From Salegentibacter lacus (GTDB taxonomy: Bacteria; Bacteroidota; Bacteroidia; Flavobacteriales; Flavobacteriaceae): a stretch of DNA of 57,018 bases. Below the pieces are notes generated by a model that was not told the origin of the DNA, made no database searches, and saw only the letters and a program-made list of their open reading frames with translations. The stretch is from assembly GCF_020164555.1 (NCBI RefSeq), contig NZ_JAIQZB010000023.1, forward strand, positions 1-57,018. The letters run 5' to 3'. Position numbers and translations under genes: made by a program. Below, in pieces: positions 15,888 to 26,782 of this stretch; the first letter of the stretch is position 1, and every line of letters starts with the position of its first letter.

Positions 15888-17213
15888 TTAATCTCCATTC
15901 CCCGTTTTTCTTAAGTAAAAATATCCGATGAGTCCGGCAATTAAAGAGGCAGAGAGTATTCCTATTTTTGCCTGAGACAGGTAGTTTTCATTTTCAAATG
16001 CAAGTTCGGTAATAAATAATGACATGGTAAAACCTATGGCCGCGAGAAATCCAATGCCGTAGACGTGTTTCCACTTCACTTTATGCGGTAAACTGGCTAT
16101 TTTAGACCAAACCATAAGCCTGGAAAAGAAAACGATCCCGATGAATTTCCCAAAAATAAGCCCGATTATTACACCAATCGTAACCGGACTTAAAAGGGCA
16201 TCAAAAGAGACACCTCCAAGGCTAACGCCTGCATTGGCAAATGCAAAAATTGGAAGAACCACAAAACTCACAAACGGATAAAGCGCATGCTCTAAACGCT
16301 GTAAAGGCGGAGTAGCATCTTCGGTTAAGGAAGAGAATTTTTCTATGTTATGGGTAATATGTTCTTCGGCTTCTTTTGGATTTTTCTTTCTATTTCTAAA
16401 TTCCTGTTGTATTTCGTAGGCTAGGAGTTTAGATTTCCTAAGAAATAAAGGTGTGTTAATTCTTTTGGTATTCGGGATTGCAAAAGCAGCCAAAACCGCC
16501 GCAATAGTAGCGTGAACTCCTGAAAGTAAGATTGCCAGCCATAAACCACCAATTCCCATAACAGCATAAAATAAAGTGTTTCTAATCCCTATTAGATTGG
16601 CTATTGCCAGGATTAGTACAAAGATTCCAGCAATTGCGAGACTTTGCAGGGAAATATCTGAGGTATAGAAAAAGGCAATGACCAAAACCGCACCAAGGTC
16701 ATCCACAATAGCGATTGCGGTTAAAAAAACTTTTAAGGGTAGAGGCACCCGATCTCCGAGCAAGTAAAGAATTCCAAGGGCAAATGCGATATCGGTAGCC
16801 ATGGGAATTCCCCATCCCGAAACCGAATCTAAACCGGTATTGAAATAAAAATAGATAAGCGCTGGAAAAAGCATTCCACCAACAGCAGCCCCAATGGGAA
16901 GTATCGATTTTCTAAAACTGGAAAGTTCACCTTGTAATATTTCTCGTTTTAGTTCCAGGCCGATCATAAAAAAGAAAATAGACATGAGTCCGTCGTTAAT
17001 CCAGTGCAGTAGATTTTTCCTGATTACAAAATCGTTTATTCCTAAATGAATGTATTGCTTCCAAAGATTATGATAGGCATCGGCAAGTGGTGAATTAGCC
17101 ACAATCATCGCAAGAATCGCTGAAAAAATTAATAAAAGACCAACTGAGGTTTTTTTCTCGATAAATTTTTTAATGGGTAACAGCAGGTAGATATCAAGGC
17201 GAGATTTTTTCAT
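15888..17213 (-). CDS. nhaA: Na+/H+ antiporter NhaA
   Basis: An electrogenic sodium/proton antiporter of the inner membrane for pH and salt homeostasis, expected in a marine bacterium. The 441-aa protein shows the NhaA hallmarks: SPLADAYHNLW near the N-terminus, WINDGLMSIFFFMIGLELKREIL, MATDIAFALGIL (essential Asp) and AIAIVDDLGAVLVIAFFY (the two adjacent essential Asp residues). It carries a cytosolic insert (about 255-300) with many charged residues. It ends 75 bp before ccoI on the same strand but is probably its own unit. The start codon is directly preceded by a dyad. Confidence 0.95.
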   Translation of the reverse strand: MKKSRLDIYLLLPIKKFIEKKTSVGLLLIFSAILAMIVANSPLADAYHNLWKQYIHLGINDFVIRKNLLHWINDGLMSIFFFMIGLELKREILQGELSSFRKSILPIGAAVGGMLFPALIYFYFNTGLDSVSGWGIPMATDIAFALGILYLLGDRVPLPLKVFLTAIAIVDDLGAVLVIAFFYTSDISLQSLAIAGIFVLILAIANLIGIRNTLFYAVMGIGGLWLAILLSGVHATIAAVLAAFAIPNTKRINTPLFLRKSKLLAYEIQQEFRNRKKNPKEAEEHITHNIEKFSSLTEDATPPLQRLEHALYPFVSFVVLPIFAFANAGVSLGGVSFDALLSPVTIGVIIGLIFGKFIGIVFFSRLMVWSKIASLPHKVKWKHVYGIGFLAAIGFTMSLFITELAFENENYLSQAKIGILSASLIAGLIGYFYLRKTGNGD

Positions 17214-17228
17214 AATAACCTGGTTATT
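17214..17228. promoter_or_regulatory. Dyad touching the nhaA start codon
   Basis: AATAACC-T-GGTTATT is a perfect 7-bp inverted repeat with a 1-bp centre, placed immediately 5' of the nhaA ATG (17211-17213). As DNA it could be an operator. As RNA the hairpin would be too tight unless inner pairs open. Confidence 0.3.
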
Positions 17229-17298
17229 GGGGATATTCGATTATAGCGTTTAGATAAATTTATATCCGTTTTCTACGTATAAATATGATGAAACTCAG

Positions 17299-17396
17299 TT
17301 TTATTCGATTATCGAGATTTAAAAATTTCCGGTTTCCTTCGAAATTAAGATATATTTTCCAATAATGCTTTTTGGGCTCTGCCCAAGGTAGTTTAC
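17299..17396 (+). repeat. Dispersed intergenic element, copy C
   Basis: Shares TTTATTCGATTATCGAGATT, CTTCGAAATTAAGATATAT, TTCCAATAATGC and GTAGTTTAC with copy A. Its right hairpin is TTGGGC-TCT-GCCCAA (17372-17377 with 17381-17386), which keeps pairing although bases differ from copy A. It lies in the divergent nhaA/corA intergenic region. Confidence 0.8.
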
Positions 17397-17463
17397 CAGT
17401 ATTTTTTTAATGCTGCAAATTAGTTTAGCCCGGTTTTTAATGCAGCCAAAAACAAAACTTTGC

Positions 17464-17471
17464 TACCTTTA
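17464..17471 (+). promoter_or_regulatory. -7 box of the corA unit
   Basis: TACCTTTA fits TAnnTTTG except for the last base. It is 17 bp before the corA ATG, predicting a very short leader, as is common in Bacteroidota. Confidence 0.4.
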
Positions 17472-17488
17472 GCCTACAAAGTACGATT

Positions 17489-18565
17489 ATGGTAAAAAAG
17501 ATTACGCAGAGCTTACGCCGGCCAAAAATGAAATCGGTAAATCAACCGCCGGGAACGGTAACCTATGTTGGTAGAAAAGAATCTGGTGAAACAAGGCTGG
17601 AAGTTATAGATTATAATAAAGATAATTATGAAAAGCATATTTCTTCTTCTACCGAAGATGCTTTTAAGTTTGAAGCTGAAGACCGTATAACCTGGTTTAA
17701 TATTGATGGATTAAGCAATACTGTAGAAATCGAAAAACTTGGTAAATATTATGATCTTCACCCCTTAATTATTGAAGATATTGTAAATACTACACAACGG
17801 CCAAAAATAGATGAGTACGAAGATTATTTGTTTATTGTTGCCAAGATGCTCTATCATCAGGACGGGCAATTGGTTAATGAACATATAAGTTTTGTTTTAG
17901 GAAAAGACTACGTGTTAACTTTTCAGGAAGCAGGTGGGGATGTTTTTGATGGCGTTCGAGGCAGGCTGGAAAAAGCTTACGGCCGTATTCGTACAAATGG
18001 TTCAGATTACCTGGTTTTTGCACTTTTAGATGCTATTGTAGATCATTATTTCCTGGTGGTAGACGAGCTGAGCGAGAAAGTGGAAAAACTGGAAGAACAA
18101 CTTTTTGAAAGTCAGCCAAGTGACGATATTACTTATGAAATTCAGGATCTTAAAAGAGCTATTTTAAGGGTTCGCCGGGCAGTTTTTCCACTTAAGGAAG
18201 TGATTTCCAGATTTCAGAATTTAGAAAATGATCTTATAAAAACCCGTACCAAAAATTACATAAACGATCTTCACGATCATATCCTTCAGGTTTCAGAAAA
18301 TATAGATTTGTATCGAGAGATGGCCTGGGGCCTTATGGATATGTATATGACCACGATTAGCAATAAAATGAACGAGGTAATGAAGGTTTTAACCATTATG
18401 GCCTCTATTTTTATTCCATTGACATTTATTGCCGGTATTTATGGGATGAATTTTGAATATATCCCCGAACTACAGTGGGAATACAGTTATTTTGTATTGT
18501 GGGGAGTAATGATCGTTATTTTTCTCCTTATGATCTACTATTTTAAACGAAAAAACTGGCTATAA
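17489..18565 (+). CDS. corA: CorA family magnesium/cobalt transporter
   Basis: A 358-aa pentameric inner-membrane Mg2+ channel. A large cytosolic N-terminal domain carries coiled-coil helices (about 190-290). Two C-terminal helices are joined by the selectivity motif YGMNFEYIPEL, where GMN is the universal CorA signature. The chain ends in a basic tail (FKRKNWL) that stays inside. It is followed after 13 bp by the lactonase-type gene and probably co-transcribed. Confidence 0.95.
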   Translation: MVKKITQSLRRPKMKSVNQPPGTVTYVGRKESGETRLEVIDYNKDNYEKHISSSTEDAFKFEAEDRITWFNIDGLSNTVEIEKLGKYYDLHPLIIEDIVNTTQRPKIDEYEDYLFIVAKMLYHQDGQLVNEHISFVLGKDYVLTFQEAGGDVFDGVRGRLEKAYGRIRTNGSDYLVFALLDAIVDHYFLVVDELSEKVEKLEEQLFESQPSDDITYEIQDLKRAILRVRRAVFPLKEVISRFQNLENDLIKTRTKNYINDLHDHILQVSENIDLYREMAWGLMDMYMTTISNKMNEVMKVLTIMASIFIPLTFIAGIYGMNFEYIPELQWEYSYFVLWGVMIVIFLLMIYYFKRKNWL

Positions 18566-20072: not shown

Positions 20073-20093
20073 CGCCAAATACCTATTAAAAAT

Positions 20094-20125
20094 AAACCTC
20101 ACAAAACCTGTGAGGTTTAATGTAT
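20094..20125. terminator. Bidirectional hairpin between convergent genes
   Basis: AAACCTCACA (20094-20103) pairs perfectly with TGTGAGGTTT (20109-20118), loop of 5. It lies between the plus-strand lipoprotein gene and the minus-strand M14 gene. Only weak T runs flank it. Confidence 0.6.
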
Positions 20126-20180: not shown

Positions 20181-21101
20181 TCACTTTCTTTCAACTTCTT
20201 CAATAACAAAAAAACCATCGTTACCCTGCGATTGATAAAGCGGCATAAAAATCCTGGCATCCCATTCGCTTTTCACCTCGTTGCCATTCTGTTTTGCAAG
20301 AAGTTCTCCTTTTTTAATCTTCTGAAAATTCTCATACCCCGGTTCCATTTCAAATACATCTGAATCTTCGAGTCCGTGGCGGTGAACTAGTTCAAAGGTT
20401 TTTTGGTCCGGAGCGTTTTTCTCCGCAAAACGGTTTACACATTCAGGATAGGTTTCAATTTTAGAAAGATCGAGCTTACAGGCTTCTTTTAAAGCCAGCC
20501 AAATCACACCTTCGTGATTTTCAACCGAAGTTTTGTCTTCGTGTTGTCCGGCTTCAAATACAAAGCCTGTCATTCCTGTTCGGCTTAGATAATGGTCTAT
20601 ATCTCCGGTAATAATATCGCTAAAACCACGTACGATAAAAGTTGGGAAATTATGCGCCCATTCGTCATTATCGTTCACTTCCTGTACCGAAACATAAGGT
20701 AAACTCGCCGATGAGGTGGTATGACAATCCAGGAAGTAACGTTTAGTAAAATCTTCTTCCGGAAATTGTTTCAGAATATCTATAATTTCCCACATTTCTT
20801 TCTGCTCGTGGGTTTCAGCTTTTTTCTGCTCAATATTTTCCTTGGTCCAAACCCGGTTAAGGTCTTCATCTATATAACGCTTATTTTGATTGAGCGCTTT
20901 GTGATTTCCGGAAACTCCTACCAAAGTTCCTTCAATTTCTGGTTTGGTCTTTTCGAGTTGTTTAAAAACTTCTTCCAAAGCCTTTACGCCACTGGGTTCA
21001 TTTCCGTGAATTCCAGCGGTTACAAAAAGTAGAGGCCCTTTTTTATTACTGGTATATTTCCCAATTATCCTTGGTATATGTTTATCTGGTTTATTACTCA
21101 T
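20181..21101 (-). CDS. Succinylglutamate desuccinylase/aspartoacylase-like M14 hydrolase
   Basis: A 306-aa zinc hydrolase of the AstE/ASPA branch of the M14 carboxypeptidase clan. The metal ligands are visible: H32 and E35 in GIHGNEPSG and H127 in FLDCHTTSS. DEDLNRVW carries the substrate-binding Asn-Arg, and FVFEAGQHED has the likely catalytic Glu. Such enzymes cleave the amide bond of N-acyl amino acids or remove single terminal residues. It is the last gene of an operon, 21 bp after an ATP-grasp ligase and downstream of a QEGLA metallopeptidase, so a substrate made by the ligase is plausible. Arginine catabolism (AstE proper) is unlikely, as no ast genes are present. Confidence 0.85.
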   Translation of the reverse strand: MSNKPDKHIPRIIGKYTSNKKGPLLFVTAGIHGNEPSGVKALEEVFKQLEKTKPEIEGTLVGVSGNHKALNQNKRYIDEDLNRVWTKENIEQKKAETHEQKEMWEIIDILKQFPEEDFTKRYFLDCHTTSSASLPYVSVQEVNDNDEWAHNFPTFIVRGFSDIITGDIDHYLSRTGMTGFVFEAGQHEDKTSVENHEGVIWLALKEACKLDLSKIETYPECVNRFAEKNAPDQKTFELVHRHGLEDSDVFEMEPGYENFQKIKKGELLAKQNGNEVKSEWDARIFMPLYQSQGNDGFFVIEEVERK

Positions 21102-21122
21102 AATAAATTCCTTTCAGTTTAT

Positions 21123-22172
21123 TTATTCCATACAGGCAATCTCCCTGTTGTCAAATTGGTGCCCGTATAGCTCTTTATATTCAACCTTACGTTCAATAGC
21201 TTCAATTACTGTATCGGTAAAATCCGGGAGGCCTATATCTTTAAAATGCTCCATACCGCCTGGACTTAAAACATTGATTTCTATCAATTTATCTTTCACT
21301 ACATCAAGACCTACAAAGAAGAGTCCGTCTCTAATAAGCTTTGGAGCAGTTAGATCTACAATGCGTTGCATCTCCGGAGTAAGATCGCTGCTATCTGCAG
21401 TGGCGCCAAGGGCGAAATTACTTCGGAATTCACCTTCACCACTCACGCGTCTAATAATTGCCTGTTTGCCATCTTTAACCATAACACGACCATTCATTAA
21501 AATAATCCTTACATCACCATCCTTAACGGCCGGTAGGAATTCCTGTGCTATAACATAACCGTCCTGACTAATGGTCTCAATAATTTGGTTGATGTTTTTT
21601 TCATTTTCATCTATAAGAAAAACGTTTTGGCCACCGGAACCTTCCAGCGGTTTTAAAACGATTTTTTTATCGTTCTTTTCCCAAAATTTCAGAATATCTT
21701 CTTTGTTCCTGGTTATTAAAGAATCTGGTTTTATTTCTTGCGGTAGTTCCTCAAAATAAAGTTTATCTATAAAAGCGTGGGATAGGGCATAGGCATCATT
21801 CAATACCAAAACACCCTGTTGTTGCATCATTCTTCCAAAAGCAACTCCCGCCTGCTCAGCCCATTCGCGGCCAGAACCTTCTTCGGTAGGGTTATTTCTT
21901 ATAAAAAGTACATCCAGTTTAGTTGATTCTATCCTCTTTTTTCTCGCTTTAGAACTTTGCAAAGCTTCCAAAAATTTCTTTGGAGATTTGGTTTTTGTAT
22001 TTTTAGGTACCTGGGTACTATTTATACTAATAGGCGCATCGTGATGAAAGTTGAAATCACCAACTCCCATTGCATAGACCTCGTGACCACGAGCGTGGGC
22101 AGTAGTCATTAACATAACAGAGGTTCCACAGCTCTCGGATTCAATATCGTTTAATACAAAGCAAATTTTCAT
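21123..22172 (-). CDS. GshB-like ATP-grasp ligase
   Basis: A 349-aa ATP-grasp enzyme resembling glutathione synthetase. The N-terminal domain ends with the GshB-like LFIRNNPTEEGSGREWA. The ATP-binding lysine lies in KPLEGSGGQNVFL (K174), and further blocks are IAQEFLPAVKDGDVRIILMNG and FVGLDVVKDKLIEINVLSPGG (metal and phosphate site). The family forms an amide bond between a carboxylate and an amino group. No gamma-glutamylcysteine synthetase is nearby and glutathione is rare in Bacteroidota, so another substrate, possibly a peptide, is likely. Its ATG overlaps the preceding stop codon (TAATG at 22170-22174), indicating coupling to the metallopeptidase gene. Confidence 0.85.
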   Translation of the reverse strand: MKICFVLNDIESESCGTSVMLMTTAHARGHEVYAMGVGDFNFHHDAPISINSTQVPKNTKTKSPKKFLEALQSSKARKKRIESTKLDVLFIRNNPTEEGSGREWAEQAGVAFGRMMQQQGVLVLNDAYALSHAFIDKLYFEELPQEIKPDSLITRNKEDILKFWEKNDKKIVLKPLEGSGGQNVFLIDENEKNINQIIETISQDGYVIAQEFLPAVKDGDVRIILMNGRVMVKDGKQAIIRRVSGEGEFRSNFALGATADSSDLTPEMQRIVDLTAPKLIRDGLFFVGLDVVKDKLIEINVLSPGGMEHFKDIGLPDFTDTVIEAIERKVEYKELYGHQFDNREIACME

Positions 22173-24016
22173 TAGGTTATCATTTGTGAAAGGGGAAGCC
22201 CCTCTCTGATTAAGTTTAATTTATTGGTTATATTCTCGGTTAATAAATAACTTGGGCGCAAGGCGCTCGTTTTTAATACTTTTCTTTCGGTTAATTCTTC
22301 GATGATTTTGGTATGTTTCAACCCGAATTTTCCTGCCAGTAAAGGTTCGTATTCCCCACCATTTTGAAGATGATCGCGAAGTTGAACCAGGCCTTTTAAG
22401 TAGATAATATCCTTTAAAAATCCTCCTCCCTGCATTATTCTGGAAGTTATATTAAAAGCTCTTTCGGCGGTAAAACCATAATCCATTTTTAATAACCTGA
22501 ATAACTGCGGAAACTCTGCTCCTTCCATCAAGGCCGATCCTGCAATTACTCTTCCAGCCAAAGTCCTTAATCTATTACCGGTAAGTCCGTCTACTAAAAA
22601 CTCAGACATTACTGCAAGTCCTTCCTGAAGTGGATCGTAATCTGCAAGGCCGCTGCTTAATAATTCTAAAGGTTGGCGCGTTCCGTTATAATAGGTAAGC
22701 ACATGAGTTCCAACCTCGTGCTGAATAAGTGCCGTAGCTTCAGTTTTATTCATTCTATAATCTGCCGGAATATAGAGTTCACCTTTATTCACCATCATAA
22801 TATTCACATCTTTACGAATGTGAACCTTGCTTTTAAAATTTTCATCCTGTTCAACAAAATAATCAAACTCGCGGCGTGCAAGACTACTAAAGCCCTTGGC
22901 ATCTATAAATTCCGCATCATCTTCCTCTGCAACTTCGTCTACTTCCCTAAGAATTTGACCTGCTTCCTGACTTAATTTTGGGTCTAAGCCTTTGTATAAT
23001 CTAATACTATTATAAAAGAAATTAGAGGTTCCACGTTCACTTAACATCGTGATTTGCTGATCCAACTCTTCACGCTTTTCCCTGAAAATATGAGACATAG
23101 CAGGATCGTCTATTTCTTCAATTTTAAGGTTATAAAGTTCCCTTTTTAGCAAATCGGGGTCTATAGGAAGTAAGCGATAGTGATAGTCTAATACCTTTTC
23201 ATAATTACTTTCAAAAAAAGTTTCCTTTATATCCTGAATATTAGCCGGGGAAACCAACCATAAAAACTGGTAAGAACGTTCTATTTTTGCCAGGGCTTTA
23301 TCTATTTCAAAAACCTTTTCCTTTAGATGTTTTCTACCCAGGGCAAGATAACTTCCCACCCCGCTTGTAGTTTGTACCCTTACATAATCAAAAATTGCTT
23401 TATGAATACAGGTTATAAGGTAATCCTTGAACTGCCTTAGAAAAACGGGATACACTTCATTATTTTCATCCCTATAAACAGGTGGTATTTCAAGTCCTAC
23501 GATTACTGCACCAGATTTTTTTGCCTCATCAACACTCAAAATTTCTTCATCACCTTCTTTTTGACGATGGGGCGTATCTTTAATTTCAGCTTTTAAATAA
23601 AGTCCCGAAAATATATTGTTAATATTGTTGAGCTCTTTTTCTAAAACCTTTACTGAGCTGGGCAGTTTTTGTGCCGGAGCCTTTATGGTAAAACAATTAT
23701 TAGGTTCTCCCGTATAGATTTCAAAAATCATGTACGATTTAAAATCTGAAGAAAGTTTATCGGCAAGGGCATAAATTAATCTTTGGTAGGCTTCAAAGAA
23801 CTTATTTCCAATTAAAAGATAAGATGCTTCACTTATAATAATTCTTTCTGTACCCGCATCATTTTTTCTCTTTCGGTAAACAACCAGGTAAGGTAAATTA
23901 TCTTCTATATGAATTAAACCTCCACCCGGAAGCGAAGCACTTATTTTGCCATCTTCTTCAAGGATTGTTAAAATTTGTTTAATTGATTTCTCCGATAATT
24001 CAGATATATTCAGCAT
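22172..24016 (-). CDS. QEGLA-motif metallopeptidase (DUF1704, MATCAP-like)
   Basis: A 614-aa soluble protein of the family labelled flavohemoglobin expression-modulating QEGLA motif protein. It has a gluzincin-like HExxxH (H433-E434...H438, LIQHEVGTHVL) and the invariant QEGLA (464-468) that supplies a further acidic ligand. The same domain (DUF1704) builds the eukaryotic MATCAP tyrosine carboxypeptidases that trim tubulin tails. The N-terminal about 200 residues are a second domain of unknown role. It is the first gene of the operon with the ATP-grasp ligase and the M14 hydrolase. The bacterial substrate is unknown; carboxypeptidase activity is inferred from the family. Confidence 0.88.
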   Translation of the reverse strand: MLNISELSEKSIKQILTILEEDGKISASLPGGGLIHIEDNLPYLVVYRKRKNDAGTERIIISEASYLLIGNKFFEAYQRLIYALADKLSSDFKSYMIFEIYTGEPNNCFTIKAPAQKLPSSVKVLEKELNNINNIFSGLYLKAEIKDTPHRQKEGDEEILSVDEAKKSGAVIVGLEIPPVYRDENNEVYPVFLRQFKDYLITCIHKAIFDYVRVQTTSGVGSYLALGRKHLKEKVFEIDKALAKIERSYQFLWLVSPANIQDIKETFFESNYEKVLDYHYRLLPIDPDLLKRELYNLKIEEIDDPAMSHIFREKREELDQQITMLSERGTSNFFYNSIRLYKGLDPKLSQEAGQILREVDEVAEEDDAEFIDAKGFSSLARREFDYFVEQDENFKSKVHIRKDVNIMMVNKGELYIPADYRMNKTEATALIQHEVGTHVLTYYNGTRQPLELLSSGLADYDPLQEGLAVMSEFLVDGLTGNRLRTLAGRVIAGSALMEGAEFPQLFRLLKMDYGFTAERAFNITSRIMQGGGFLKDIIYLKGLVQLRDHLQNGGEYEPLLAGKFGLKHTKIIEELTERKVLKTSALRPSYLLTENITNKLNLIREGLPLSQMIT

Positions 24017-25474: not shown

Positions 25475-26782
25475 CTATTGATCTTTACTTAGTTGATTAG
25501 AAGTAATTTTTTCATTCAAATAATCACGAATATCGTCACCCGATGGAGCTTCGAATAATTGGAGATCAAAATAGGAAACGGCAGCTATTATATGGTCAAA
25601 AATATCGGCAGTGATATATTCGAAATTTTCCCAGCGTTTATCGCGACTAAAACATAGAATTTCTAAGGGAATCCCGTGTTCTGTTGGTTGTAAATGCCTT
25701 ACAATAATGTACATTTCTTTATGAACAGCCGAGTGAGTGTTTAAATAAGTATCAATATACTTTCTAAAAATACCAAGATTTGTTTGATTTCTCCCGTTTA
25801 AAGGAAGTTTTGTATCAATTTCGTTTGTAGTGTTGTAAGCGTCAATTTCATTCTGCCGTTCTTCGAGATAGGAAGAAATTGACTGTATGTTTTTATATTT
25901 TTCAAAATCTTCTGGTGTGATAAATTTCACTGAATTCTGTTTAATAAAAACCGAACGTTTAATTCTTCTTCCGGGAGATTCCTGCATTCCGCGCCAGTTC
26001 TGGAATGATTCAGAAATTAAACTGTAGGTGGGAATAGAGGTAAATGTATTATCAAAATTCTGAACTCTTACCGTGGCGAGGGTGATTTCAGTTACGGTAC
26101 CATCGGCGCCATATTTGCTAAAAGTAATCCAGTCGCCAATTCTTACAATATCATTCACGCTAACCTGAATAGACGCCACAAAACCTAAGATGGTATCTTT
26201 AAAAATTAATAGTAAAATTGCCGATGCGGCACCCAGGGAAATAATAAAATTTATGACATCTTTTCCGGTAATTTCAGCGATAATAAAGATAAAGGCGAAG
26301 AGCCAAACAATGATCATCGCTACCTGAATATAACTTTCTACCGGTTTATCTTTGAATGATTCTAAGGTTCTTAGGTAGTTTTTGGTGGCGCGCAAAAAGC
26401 TTCTAATAAGCCAAACGATAAGAAAAATGATATAAATATCAATTAGAAAAAAGAAGGCTTTAATCGCCAGGGGAAACTCTACTAAAATATAAGGAACAGC
26501 CAGGTAAATGATGATTAATGGAAGGATCTGTCCTATATATTTTGGGAAATTAGTTTTTATAAGAAAATCGTCGAAAGTAGTTTGAGTTTTATTACTAAAA
26601 CTTTTAAATGCCTCAATCACAAAATTTCTTATCAGGTAATTTATTCCAAGAATTAATAGGATTAGCACCAGGATATTCAAAAGTAAATTTAGATAGAGCG
26701 CAAGCGTAGGATTTACCCCCTGGTCTATTAGAAAAGTTTCAAAAAGACAAATAAGATTTTTAAATCCTTCCTCTATATTCAT
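25475..26782 (-). CDS. MscS-type mechanosensitive ion channel
   Basis: A 435-aa channel that opens on membrane tension to release solutes during osmotic downshift. Five hydrophobic segments precede the pore region (FIISLGAASAILLLIFKDTILGFVASI, about 180-206, written here in parts: FIISLGAASAILLLIF and KDTILGFVASI). The MscS beta domain follows with VRIGDWITF and GTVTEITLATVRVQNFDNTFTSIP (in parts: GTVTEITLATVRVQN, TSIPTYSLI). A long cytosolic C-terminal domain resembles YbdG-type channels. It is 3 bp after the DUF3817 gene, forming a two-gene operon. Confidence 0.92.
   Translation of the reverse strand: MNIEEGFKNLICLFETFLIDQGVNPTLALYLNLLLNILVLILLILGINYLIRNFVIEAFKSFSNKTQTTFDDFLIKTNFPKYIGQILPLIIIYLAVPYILVEFPLAIKAFFFLIDIYIIFLIVWLIRSFLRATKNYLRTLESFKDKPVESYIQVAMIIVWLFAFIFIIAEITGKDVINFIISLGAASAILLLIFKDTILGFVASIQVSVNDIVRIGDWITFSKYGADGTVTEITLATVRVQNFDNTFTSIPTYSLISESFQNWRGMQESPGRRIKRSVFIKQNSVKFITPEDFEKYKNIQSISSYLEERQNEIDAYNTTNEIDTKLPLNGRNQTNLGIFRKYIDTYLNTHSAVHKEMYIIVRHLQPTEHGIPLEILCFSRDKRWENFEYITADIFDHIIAAVSYFDLQLFEAPSGDDIRDYLNEKITSNQLSKDQ

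Follow-up and report, generated by a model that had tools for sequence, protein, structure and literature searches.

Enzyme pairs in which a peptidase opposes an ATP-grasp ligase are known from several systems. TTL ligates a residue onto tubulin opposite MATCAP, and gene neighbourhoods of predicted ATP-grasp peptide ligases and peptidases were reportedly described by Iyer et al. in 2009. Here I analyse a three-gene operon on the minus strand of a 57,018-nucleotide stretch of Salegentibacter lacus DNA (contig NZ_JAIQZB010000023.1; the whole stretch is called the window). It encodes a QEGLA/MATCAP-family metallopeptidase (22172..24016), a GshB-type ATP-grasp ligase (21123..22172), and an M14-like zinc amidohydrolase of the AstE/aspartoacylase type (20181..21101). 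The operon is a member of a widespread and variable module, in which the peptidase and the ligase stay together and the third gene is usually an N-formylglutamate amidohydrolase (FGase) gene instead. There is about an even chance that it encodes a cytosolic amide-bond cycle which handles an acidic residue and whose product is not glutathione.

The operon shares with the tubulin cycle a MATCAP-family carboxypeptidase opposing an ATP-grasp ligase. However, TTL belongs to another ATP-grasp branch and is a eukaryotic enzyme of tubulin, whereas the two bacterial genes share an operon that also encodes a third enzyme, a hydrolase. RimB-RimK is similar in that an ATP-grasp ligase has a linked peptidase undoing its product and that hybrid genes exist (PMC11957791), and an AstE-like third gene accompanies RimK in the S. 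lacus genome. In place of RimB, an aspartic protease of the retropepsin-like kind, and the glutamate ligase RimK, the present operon has a zinc peptidase of the MATCAP family and a ligase of the GshB type. RloABC of Pseudomonas aeruginosa is likewise a peptidase and ATP-grasp operon, tied to hypo-osmotic tolerance; unlike in the window operon, its peptidase is retropepsin-like and secreted, a transglutaminase-like membrane protein is encoded with it, and no MATCAP or M14 enzyme is named in the available passages of PMC12239564. Thus, ligase-plus-peptidase modules are known already, while a QEGLA-ligase-hydrolase system was not met among the matches listed in the open-licence literature. Within the same matches, no work addresses the function of bacterial DUF1704/QEGLA/COG3930 proteins, and a bacterial QEGLA gene is named only in PMC10308900. 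The open-licence literature also gave nothing on S. meliloti gshB2 or on FGase together with glutathione synthetase.

Three enzyme families in one operon

The three open reading frames (ORFs) of 614, 349, and 306 amino acids lie on the minus strand where the first-pass annotation had placed them, with a 1-bp overlap (TAATG) between the QEGLA and ligase genes and a 21-bp gap between the ligase gene and the M14-like gene. The QEGLA protein matches the MATCAP family PF08014 at 261 bits (cut-off 27), and it stays below the curated QEGLA cut-off of TIGR02421 (296.7 of 338.65 bits). Its C-terminal zincin domain (22172..23281, minus strand; Pfam match at residues 265-601) carries HExxxH at 433-438 and QEGLA at 464-468, as had been read from the sequence at first. 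Seventeen sequences all share H433, E434, H438, Q464, E465, G466, and A468, and at least 90% of them have L467; the first five residues are also invariant across 19 diverse QEGLA sequences. A diverse QEGLA profile (A6) matches the MATCAP structures 7z5g (E = 7.4e-18) and 7z6s (E = 2.9e-16), with HExxxH, (Q/E)EGLA, and KDxxYLxG lined up between them. The glutamate of (Q/E)EGLA is presumably the third metal ligand. The animal relatives TMCP1 and TMCP2 trim tubulin tails and deglutamylate, according to the portion of PMC10499314 at hand.

The ligase matches PF02955 (GSH-S_ATP) at 171 bits against a cut-off of 23. The first-pass annotation had pointed out K174 and an ENxx-type metal site; K174, E298, and N300 are invariant in 18 sequences and also in a 24-row ligase set. 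The latter includes two GshB proteins whose genes adjoin GCS2 genes; these were used as a reference and presumed to be true glutathione enzymes. The early assignment to the TTL type had to be rejected, since no TTL match is found among the five Pfam families hit at E up to 0.001, while the cut-off of the nearest NCBI subfamily, PRK12458 'glutathione synthetase' (NF009110), is passed (443 vs 408 bits). The RimK cut-off of TIGR00768 is not reached (78 of 143.4 bits). The ligase is like GshB and PRK12458 in its fold family and in its ATP- and metal-site residues. It is unlike GshB in that it falls below both equivalog cut-offs (NF003573, 205.8 of 272 bits; TIGR01380, 193.4 of 299 bits), in that residues 251 and 305 differ, and in that most genomes checked lack a gamma-Glu-Cys ligase of either family covered by the search.

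The third protein matches PF24827 (AstE_AspA) at 71.6 bits against a cut-off of 25. In a profile search, the AstE structure 1yw6 was hit at E = 8.4e-12, and structures of aspartoacylases at E about 2e-5. H32, E35, and H127, the residues of the originally proposed zinc hydrolase, are invariant in 18 AstE-like sequences, as are R75, N82, and R83. The curated AstE models (71.1 of 170 and 60.9 of 305.65 bits) and the curated aspartoacylase model (60.9 of 180 bits) are not reached.

A constant ligase and an exchangeable amidohydrolase

With the window's own QEGLA protein as a single query, which reaches close relatives only, the QEGLA-ligase-AstE order was found to be kept in 17 of 17 distinct loci from eight genera by record title. 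The window's QEGLA is 97% identical to that of S. agarivorans. Spacing was measured in 15 loci with mechanical ORF starts: the QEGLA and ligase genes overlap by 1, 4, or 26 bp in 14 and are 28 bp apart in one, and the gaps between the ligase and AstE genes range from 9 to 88 bp. The two loci left out are L013, which has two ligases, and L018 of Gillisia marina (L018:5989-7850), where a frameshift or an assembly error breaks the QEGLA gene into two overlapping ORFs.

Is the linkage common outside the close relatives? In a phylum sample, 12 of 198 genomes have QEGLA, and in 11 of the 12, all but G186, a GSH-S_ATP ligase with a strong match (E at most 1e-50) lies no more than 5 kb away from it. 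In the family sample, QEGLA was found in 190 of 397 genomes, from which 80 were chosen, not as a random draw: 26 with a best E value weaker than 1e-92, nine with long frames among the matches listed, and the first 45 of the remainder in table order. These 80 genomes contain 96 QEGLA matches, 91 of which have a GSH-S_ATP ligase (E at most 1e-30) within 5 kb; conversely, 95 of the 97 ligases sit within 5 kb of QEGLA. By chance, about 0.4 such loci would be expected, taking 3.5 Mb per genome. The linkage recurs in records from Bacteroidota, rhizobia, and Photobacterium. Six of six annotated plasmid loci with a long QEGLA (Pararhizobium, Shinella, Mesorhizobium, S. meliloti pSymB, Roseateles, and Aminobacter) read FGase-QEGLA-'glutathione synthase/synthetase'. 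On the Ensifer plasmids L093, L094, and L095, orphan PRK12458-like ligases have stress-type genes nearby and lie among CsbD, DUF2934, ferritin-like, LigD, and similar genes. An unverified Pseudomonas phage Y1 record (L048:5820-7826) gave a weak tblastn match to QEGLA (24%), where Pfam shows only AIM24.

The first-pass annotation had regarded the three genes as one coupled ligase and hydrolase system. That view is borne out by the pairing of QEGLA with the ligase and by the fusions described below, while the loss of linkage concerns the M14-like gene only. As a universal partner, M14/AstE was rejected, because it adjoins QEGLA in only two of the 12 phylum-sample genomes (G000, which is the S. 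lacus genome, and G053); G002 and G122 have no AstE match anywhere in the genome. The third gene varies. QEGLA loci were divided by frame length into short (380-599 amino acids) and long (600 or more). Of the short-QEGLA loci in the 80 family genomes, 47 of 51 hold one ligase and an FGase (PF05013). Among the 41 long-QEGLA loci, AstE lies beside 29; 24 of these came from a search that covered 35 of the 80 genomes, and five in other genomes (L063, L064, and L096-L098) from BLAST of the locus DNA. Five long-QEGLA loci have an FGase, four of them with two ligases. The other seven (L056-L062) have neither hydrolase beside them, and each of their genomes contains, elsewhere, a short-QEGLA locus that does have an FGase.

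The ligases form two clades, type A with a short or fused QEGLA and type B, including the window's ligase, with the N-domain form of QEGLA. The two types are 28% identical on average, and the distance of either to the two GCS2-linked GshB proteins is about the same as that between them. Both share S251 and G305, where the two GshB proteins have G and T. In four of the 80 genomes, two ligases occur at one locus, with type A before and type B behind QEGLA in all four. In a tree of 42 chosen ligases, the 13 AstE-linked ones group together with support of 100/100, nested in type B (99/98), and the remaining type B members are FGase-linked or hydrolase-less; the tree is midpoint-rooted and some internal branches of type B are weak (94/91 and 88/63). 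Since type A is FGase-linked and the AstE-linked ligases form one clade, I read the AstE of the window's clade as probably the result of a single replacement of FGase.

The N-terminal domain of the QEGLA protein

The first 245 or so residues of the window's QEGLA protein (23282..24016, minus strand) belong to a domain that matches no Pfam family in 19 members; only weak, unrelated matches with E values of 0.02 or worse were obtained. At three loci (L033, L044, and L045), an FGase is fused to QEGLA. In these three records, all that were scanned (the Bacteroidota genome G045 and two from Photobacterium), the FGase and MATCAP domains form one chain of 662-667 amino acids directly behind the ligase. 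A first default profile comparison of the 19 N-domains with 14 FGases gave a probability of 60%. A more careful alignment with 18 FGases gave 92.1% (E = 6.3e-7), and hhalign of the 19 N-domains against eight type I FGases gave 96.2 (E = 2.1e-9) over about 200 columns. Controls with 40 column shuffles and four reversals (10 and two on the 18-FGase set, 30 and two on the type I set) gave at most 0.4%. With AstE, the ligase, and the QEGLA C-domain as controls, the values were 1.2%, 0.1%, and 0.2%, respectively.

The motifs AxH[DNHS]G, DxHSYN, and DLNR, which I take to be the metal and substrate residues of the FGase active site, occur in 13, 14, and 14 of 14 operon FGases, respectively, and in all three fusions, while none of the 19 N-domains has any of them. 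An EEDP motif is found in one of the 19 N-domains vs 14 of 14 FGases. Given the profile homology and the lost motifs, the N-domain family derives from FGases and has no active site left. The FGase-linked N-domains alone reach 93.2% against FGase, and BLAST joins them directly to the window-type N-domains (E = 1e-6 to 1e-33). The nine window-type N-domains alone reach only 17%, so that the link runs through relatives, which counts against this derivation. The domain may now have a docking or regulatory role.

Chemistry, product, and role of the proposed cycle

In the cycle to which I give an even chance, the GshB-fold ligase would phosphorylate a carboxylate with ATP and form an amide between it and an amino acid's amino group, the amino acid being most likely of the glutamate or aspartate type. 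The MATCAP-type QEGLA carboxypeptidase would remove single residues with a free alpha-carboxylate, and so would the N-acyl-amino-acid amidohydrolase, which is of the FGase type in most relatives and of the AstE type in the window's clade. The dead FGase-like N-domain of the QEGLA chain, presumably derived from an ancestral FGase-MATCAP fusion, might dock or regulate. For the product, the first choice would be an acidic peptide in soluble form, N-acylated or a short chain of glutamyl/aspartyl residues, with a tie to osmotic or general stress.

The acidic residue is suggested by the hydrolases. AstE keeps R75 and DLNR, and the operon FGases keep R-F-x-x-D-x-N-R, so that an R...D-x-NR signature is common to both (R75, D80, N82, and R83 in alignment A3; R67, D71, N73, and R74 in A4). 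The A3-A4 profile comparison was not significant (0.6%), and the shared signature is therefore a motif observation only; no solved structure matched the operon FGases at E up to 0.01. In known relatives, these residues hold a free carboxylate. Each of the hydrolases should thus split off one amino acid whose alpha-carboxylate is free. An SDF symporter gene is present in five compared loci (more by BLAST), its nearest NCBI model being GltP, far below the cut-off (266.6 of 638 bits). Taking the symporter, the hydrolase residues, the deglutamylating MATCAP relatives, and the precedent of RimB/RimK together, glutamate or aspartate is the best guess for the residue moved.

Does the cycle work on a free peptide or on a protein tail? 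The ligase keeps the GSH-S_N domain (PF02951, 38.7 bits) and no conserved substrate gene was seen beside the loci compared, which makes an acidic peptide a more likely target than a tail. Protein-tail editing, one of the readings put forward by the first-pass annotation, would have a cytosolic protein gain a C-terminal residue from the ligase and lose it again to QEGLA and the amidohydrolase, much as RimK/RimB act on ribosomal protein S6 or TTL/MATCAP on tubulin. It is on balance unlikely, although it is the alternative with the most behind it. The described substrates of the MATCAP relatives are tubulin tails (PMC10499314, as above), and RimB takes off the glutamate that RimK adds to RpsF, with RimB-RimK hybrids on record (PMC11957791). 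The S. lacus genome itself has a parallel Zn_protease (RimB-like)/RimK/AstE operon (L052:7668-9946, contig 41), whose layout is nearest to that of the window operon. On the other hand, the window's ligase is of the GshB type and not of the TTL or RimK type, and there is the lack of a neighbouring substrate gene in the compared loci, although a housekeeping substrate would need none.

A thiol pathway, in which a glutathione-like thiol peptide would be made, or imported glutathione remade, and recycled by the hydrolases, is less probable still. Its support begins with the GshB homology of the ligase, and R92 is invariant in all 24 ligases including the two GCS2-linked GshB proteins. Of 52 pairs of a type A ligase and an FGase, 17 have a rhodanese gene in between; not counted among the pairs were G261 (no ligase), G209 (ligase on the other side), and G211 and G382 (cut ligase matches). 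Gaps of at least 1 kb separate 18 of the type A ligase-FGase pairs, and rhodanese was found in 16 of the 17 fetched and also in the eighteenth, L034. A DCC1-like thiol oxidoreductase gene lies near five loci. At the seven hydrolase-less loci, bshC is nearby and an M14 zinc carboxypeptidase gene (PF00246) beyond it, with DnaJ and MerR genes between the two in two of the seven; genes were named by Pfam on L056 and by BLAST cluster on the others. Against this, no rhodanese is present in the window operon, and the neighbouring genes for bshC, DCC1, M14 (PF00246), and chorismate synthase may owe their place to gene order conserved within the family and need not be functional partners. As side observations, the rhodanese is mercaptopyruvate-sulfurtransferase-like (L034, L037, L065, L073-L086, L088, and L089), with a weakly TerB-like small gene alongside in seven of 16 loci, and a weakly TerB-like gene is also located in the four ligase-FGase gaps that measure 558-582 bp.

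The supply of gamma-Glu-Cys also speaks against a thiol pathway. PF04262 was found in none of 14 genomes searched, and neither PF04107 nor PF04262, the two gamma-Glu-Cys ligase families covered by the search, in eight of the 11 genomes of the phylum sample that have QEGLA and the ligase together. GCS2-GshB pairs of G194 and G076 occur without QEGLA, and the fixed G305 and S251 replace the T and G of the reference GshB proteins. The first-pass annotation had stated that gshA is lacking; this is right for PF04262 in the S. lacus genome, while one PF04107 (GCS2) protein is encoded elsewhere, in an RLAN-ATP-grasp/GCS2/FGase operon (L051:7389-10744, contig 52). The only PF02955 matches of this genome are the operon ligase and the RimK of the Zn_protease-RimK-AstE operon. 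Glutathione by the ordinary pathway is disfavoured in S. lacus, and the earlier expectation that glutathione is unlikely probably stands as far as its ordinary synthesis is concerned. That the genes are unrelated and neighbours by chance, as the variable third gene and the few loci without a ligase might suggest, is barely credible given that 91 of 96 loci keep the pair where chance would give about 0.4, the spread of the linkage over Bacteroidota, rhizobial, and Photobacterium records, and the fusions.

Several observations weigh against an acidic amide cycle without glutathione. The ligase retains a GSH-S_N domain, and the type A ligase of L032 passes the GshB equivalog cut-off of NF003573 (293.5 vs 272 bits) and fails that of TIGR01380. 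G130 and G171, in addition to S. lacus (G000), carry a PF04107 protein. The rhodanese and bshC neighbours hint at thiols. Five of the 96 QEGLA matches have no ligase nearby (G251, G226:C15, G203:C14, G261, and a contig-end fragment of G468), as is also the case in G186 and on one Pseudoalteromonas plasmid; conversely, two of the 97 ligases (G272 and G382) and those of the three Ensifer plasmids examined have no QEGLA nearby. Finally, the acidic residue is deduced entirely from relatives.

A hint at the role of the amide cycle comes from Photobacterium damselae grown at 1% vs 3% NaCl, where the QEGLA gene A0J47_RS17025 is 27.5-fold, 'GshB' RS17020 38.4-fold, and RimK 52-fold up (PMC10308900). 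In the part of that paper available, the listed gene is discussed as GshB with a meaning for colonisation. The two Photobacterium records have the ligase directly before the FGase-QEGLA fusion, and the tags RS17020 and RS17025 are consecutive; the listed 'GshB' is thus very probably the QEGLA-linked ligase and not a glutathione enzyme. Together with the hypo-osmotic tolerance tied to RloABC, the ion and osmotic homeostasis genes beside the window operon, and the stress-type genes close to the orphan Ensifer ligases, this makes a circumstantial case for an osmotic or general stress role of the operon.

As for the surroundings of the operon, a possible intrinsic terminator (20093..20119, minus strand; a 12-pair stem with a T-rich tail) lies 3′ of it, found by a consensus scan that gave seven such sites in the region vs 3.6 expected in shuffles. 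Genes for an NhaA antiporter, a CorA channel, and an MscS-type channel, which belong to ion/osmotic homeostasis, flank the operon at 15888-18565 and 25475-26782.

In a bolder form, which falls somewhat short of an even chance, the PRK12458-branch 'glutathione synthetases' of types A and B would make no glutathione but would drive the forward direction of an amide cycle that stress induces. MATCAP would have become its reverse half by fusion to an amidohydrolase, the amidohydrolase half now being a pseudo-enzyme docking domain, and the product would be an acidic peptide or tail. The bacterial MATCAP family gains constant partners, a fused architecture, and a candidate chemistry. If the proposal is true, many 'glutathione synthetase' labels would point to another pathway, including that of the gene in the salinity transcriptome (PMC10308900), and data of this sort would have to be read differently. 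The operon would then parallel, in bacteria, the tubulin ligase/MATCAP cycle and yield an acidic peptide or tail modification of a new kind.

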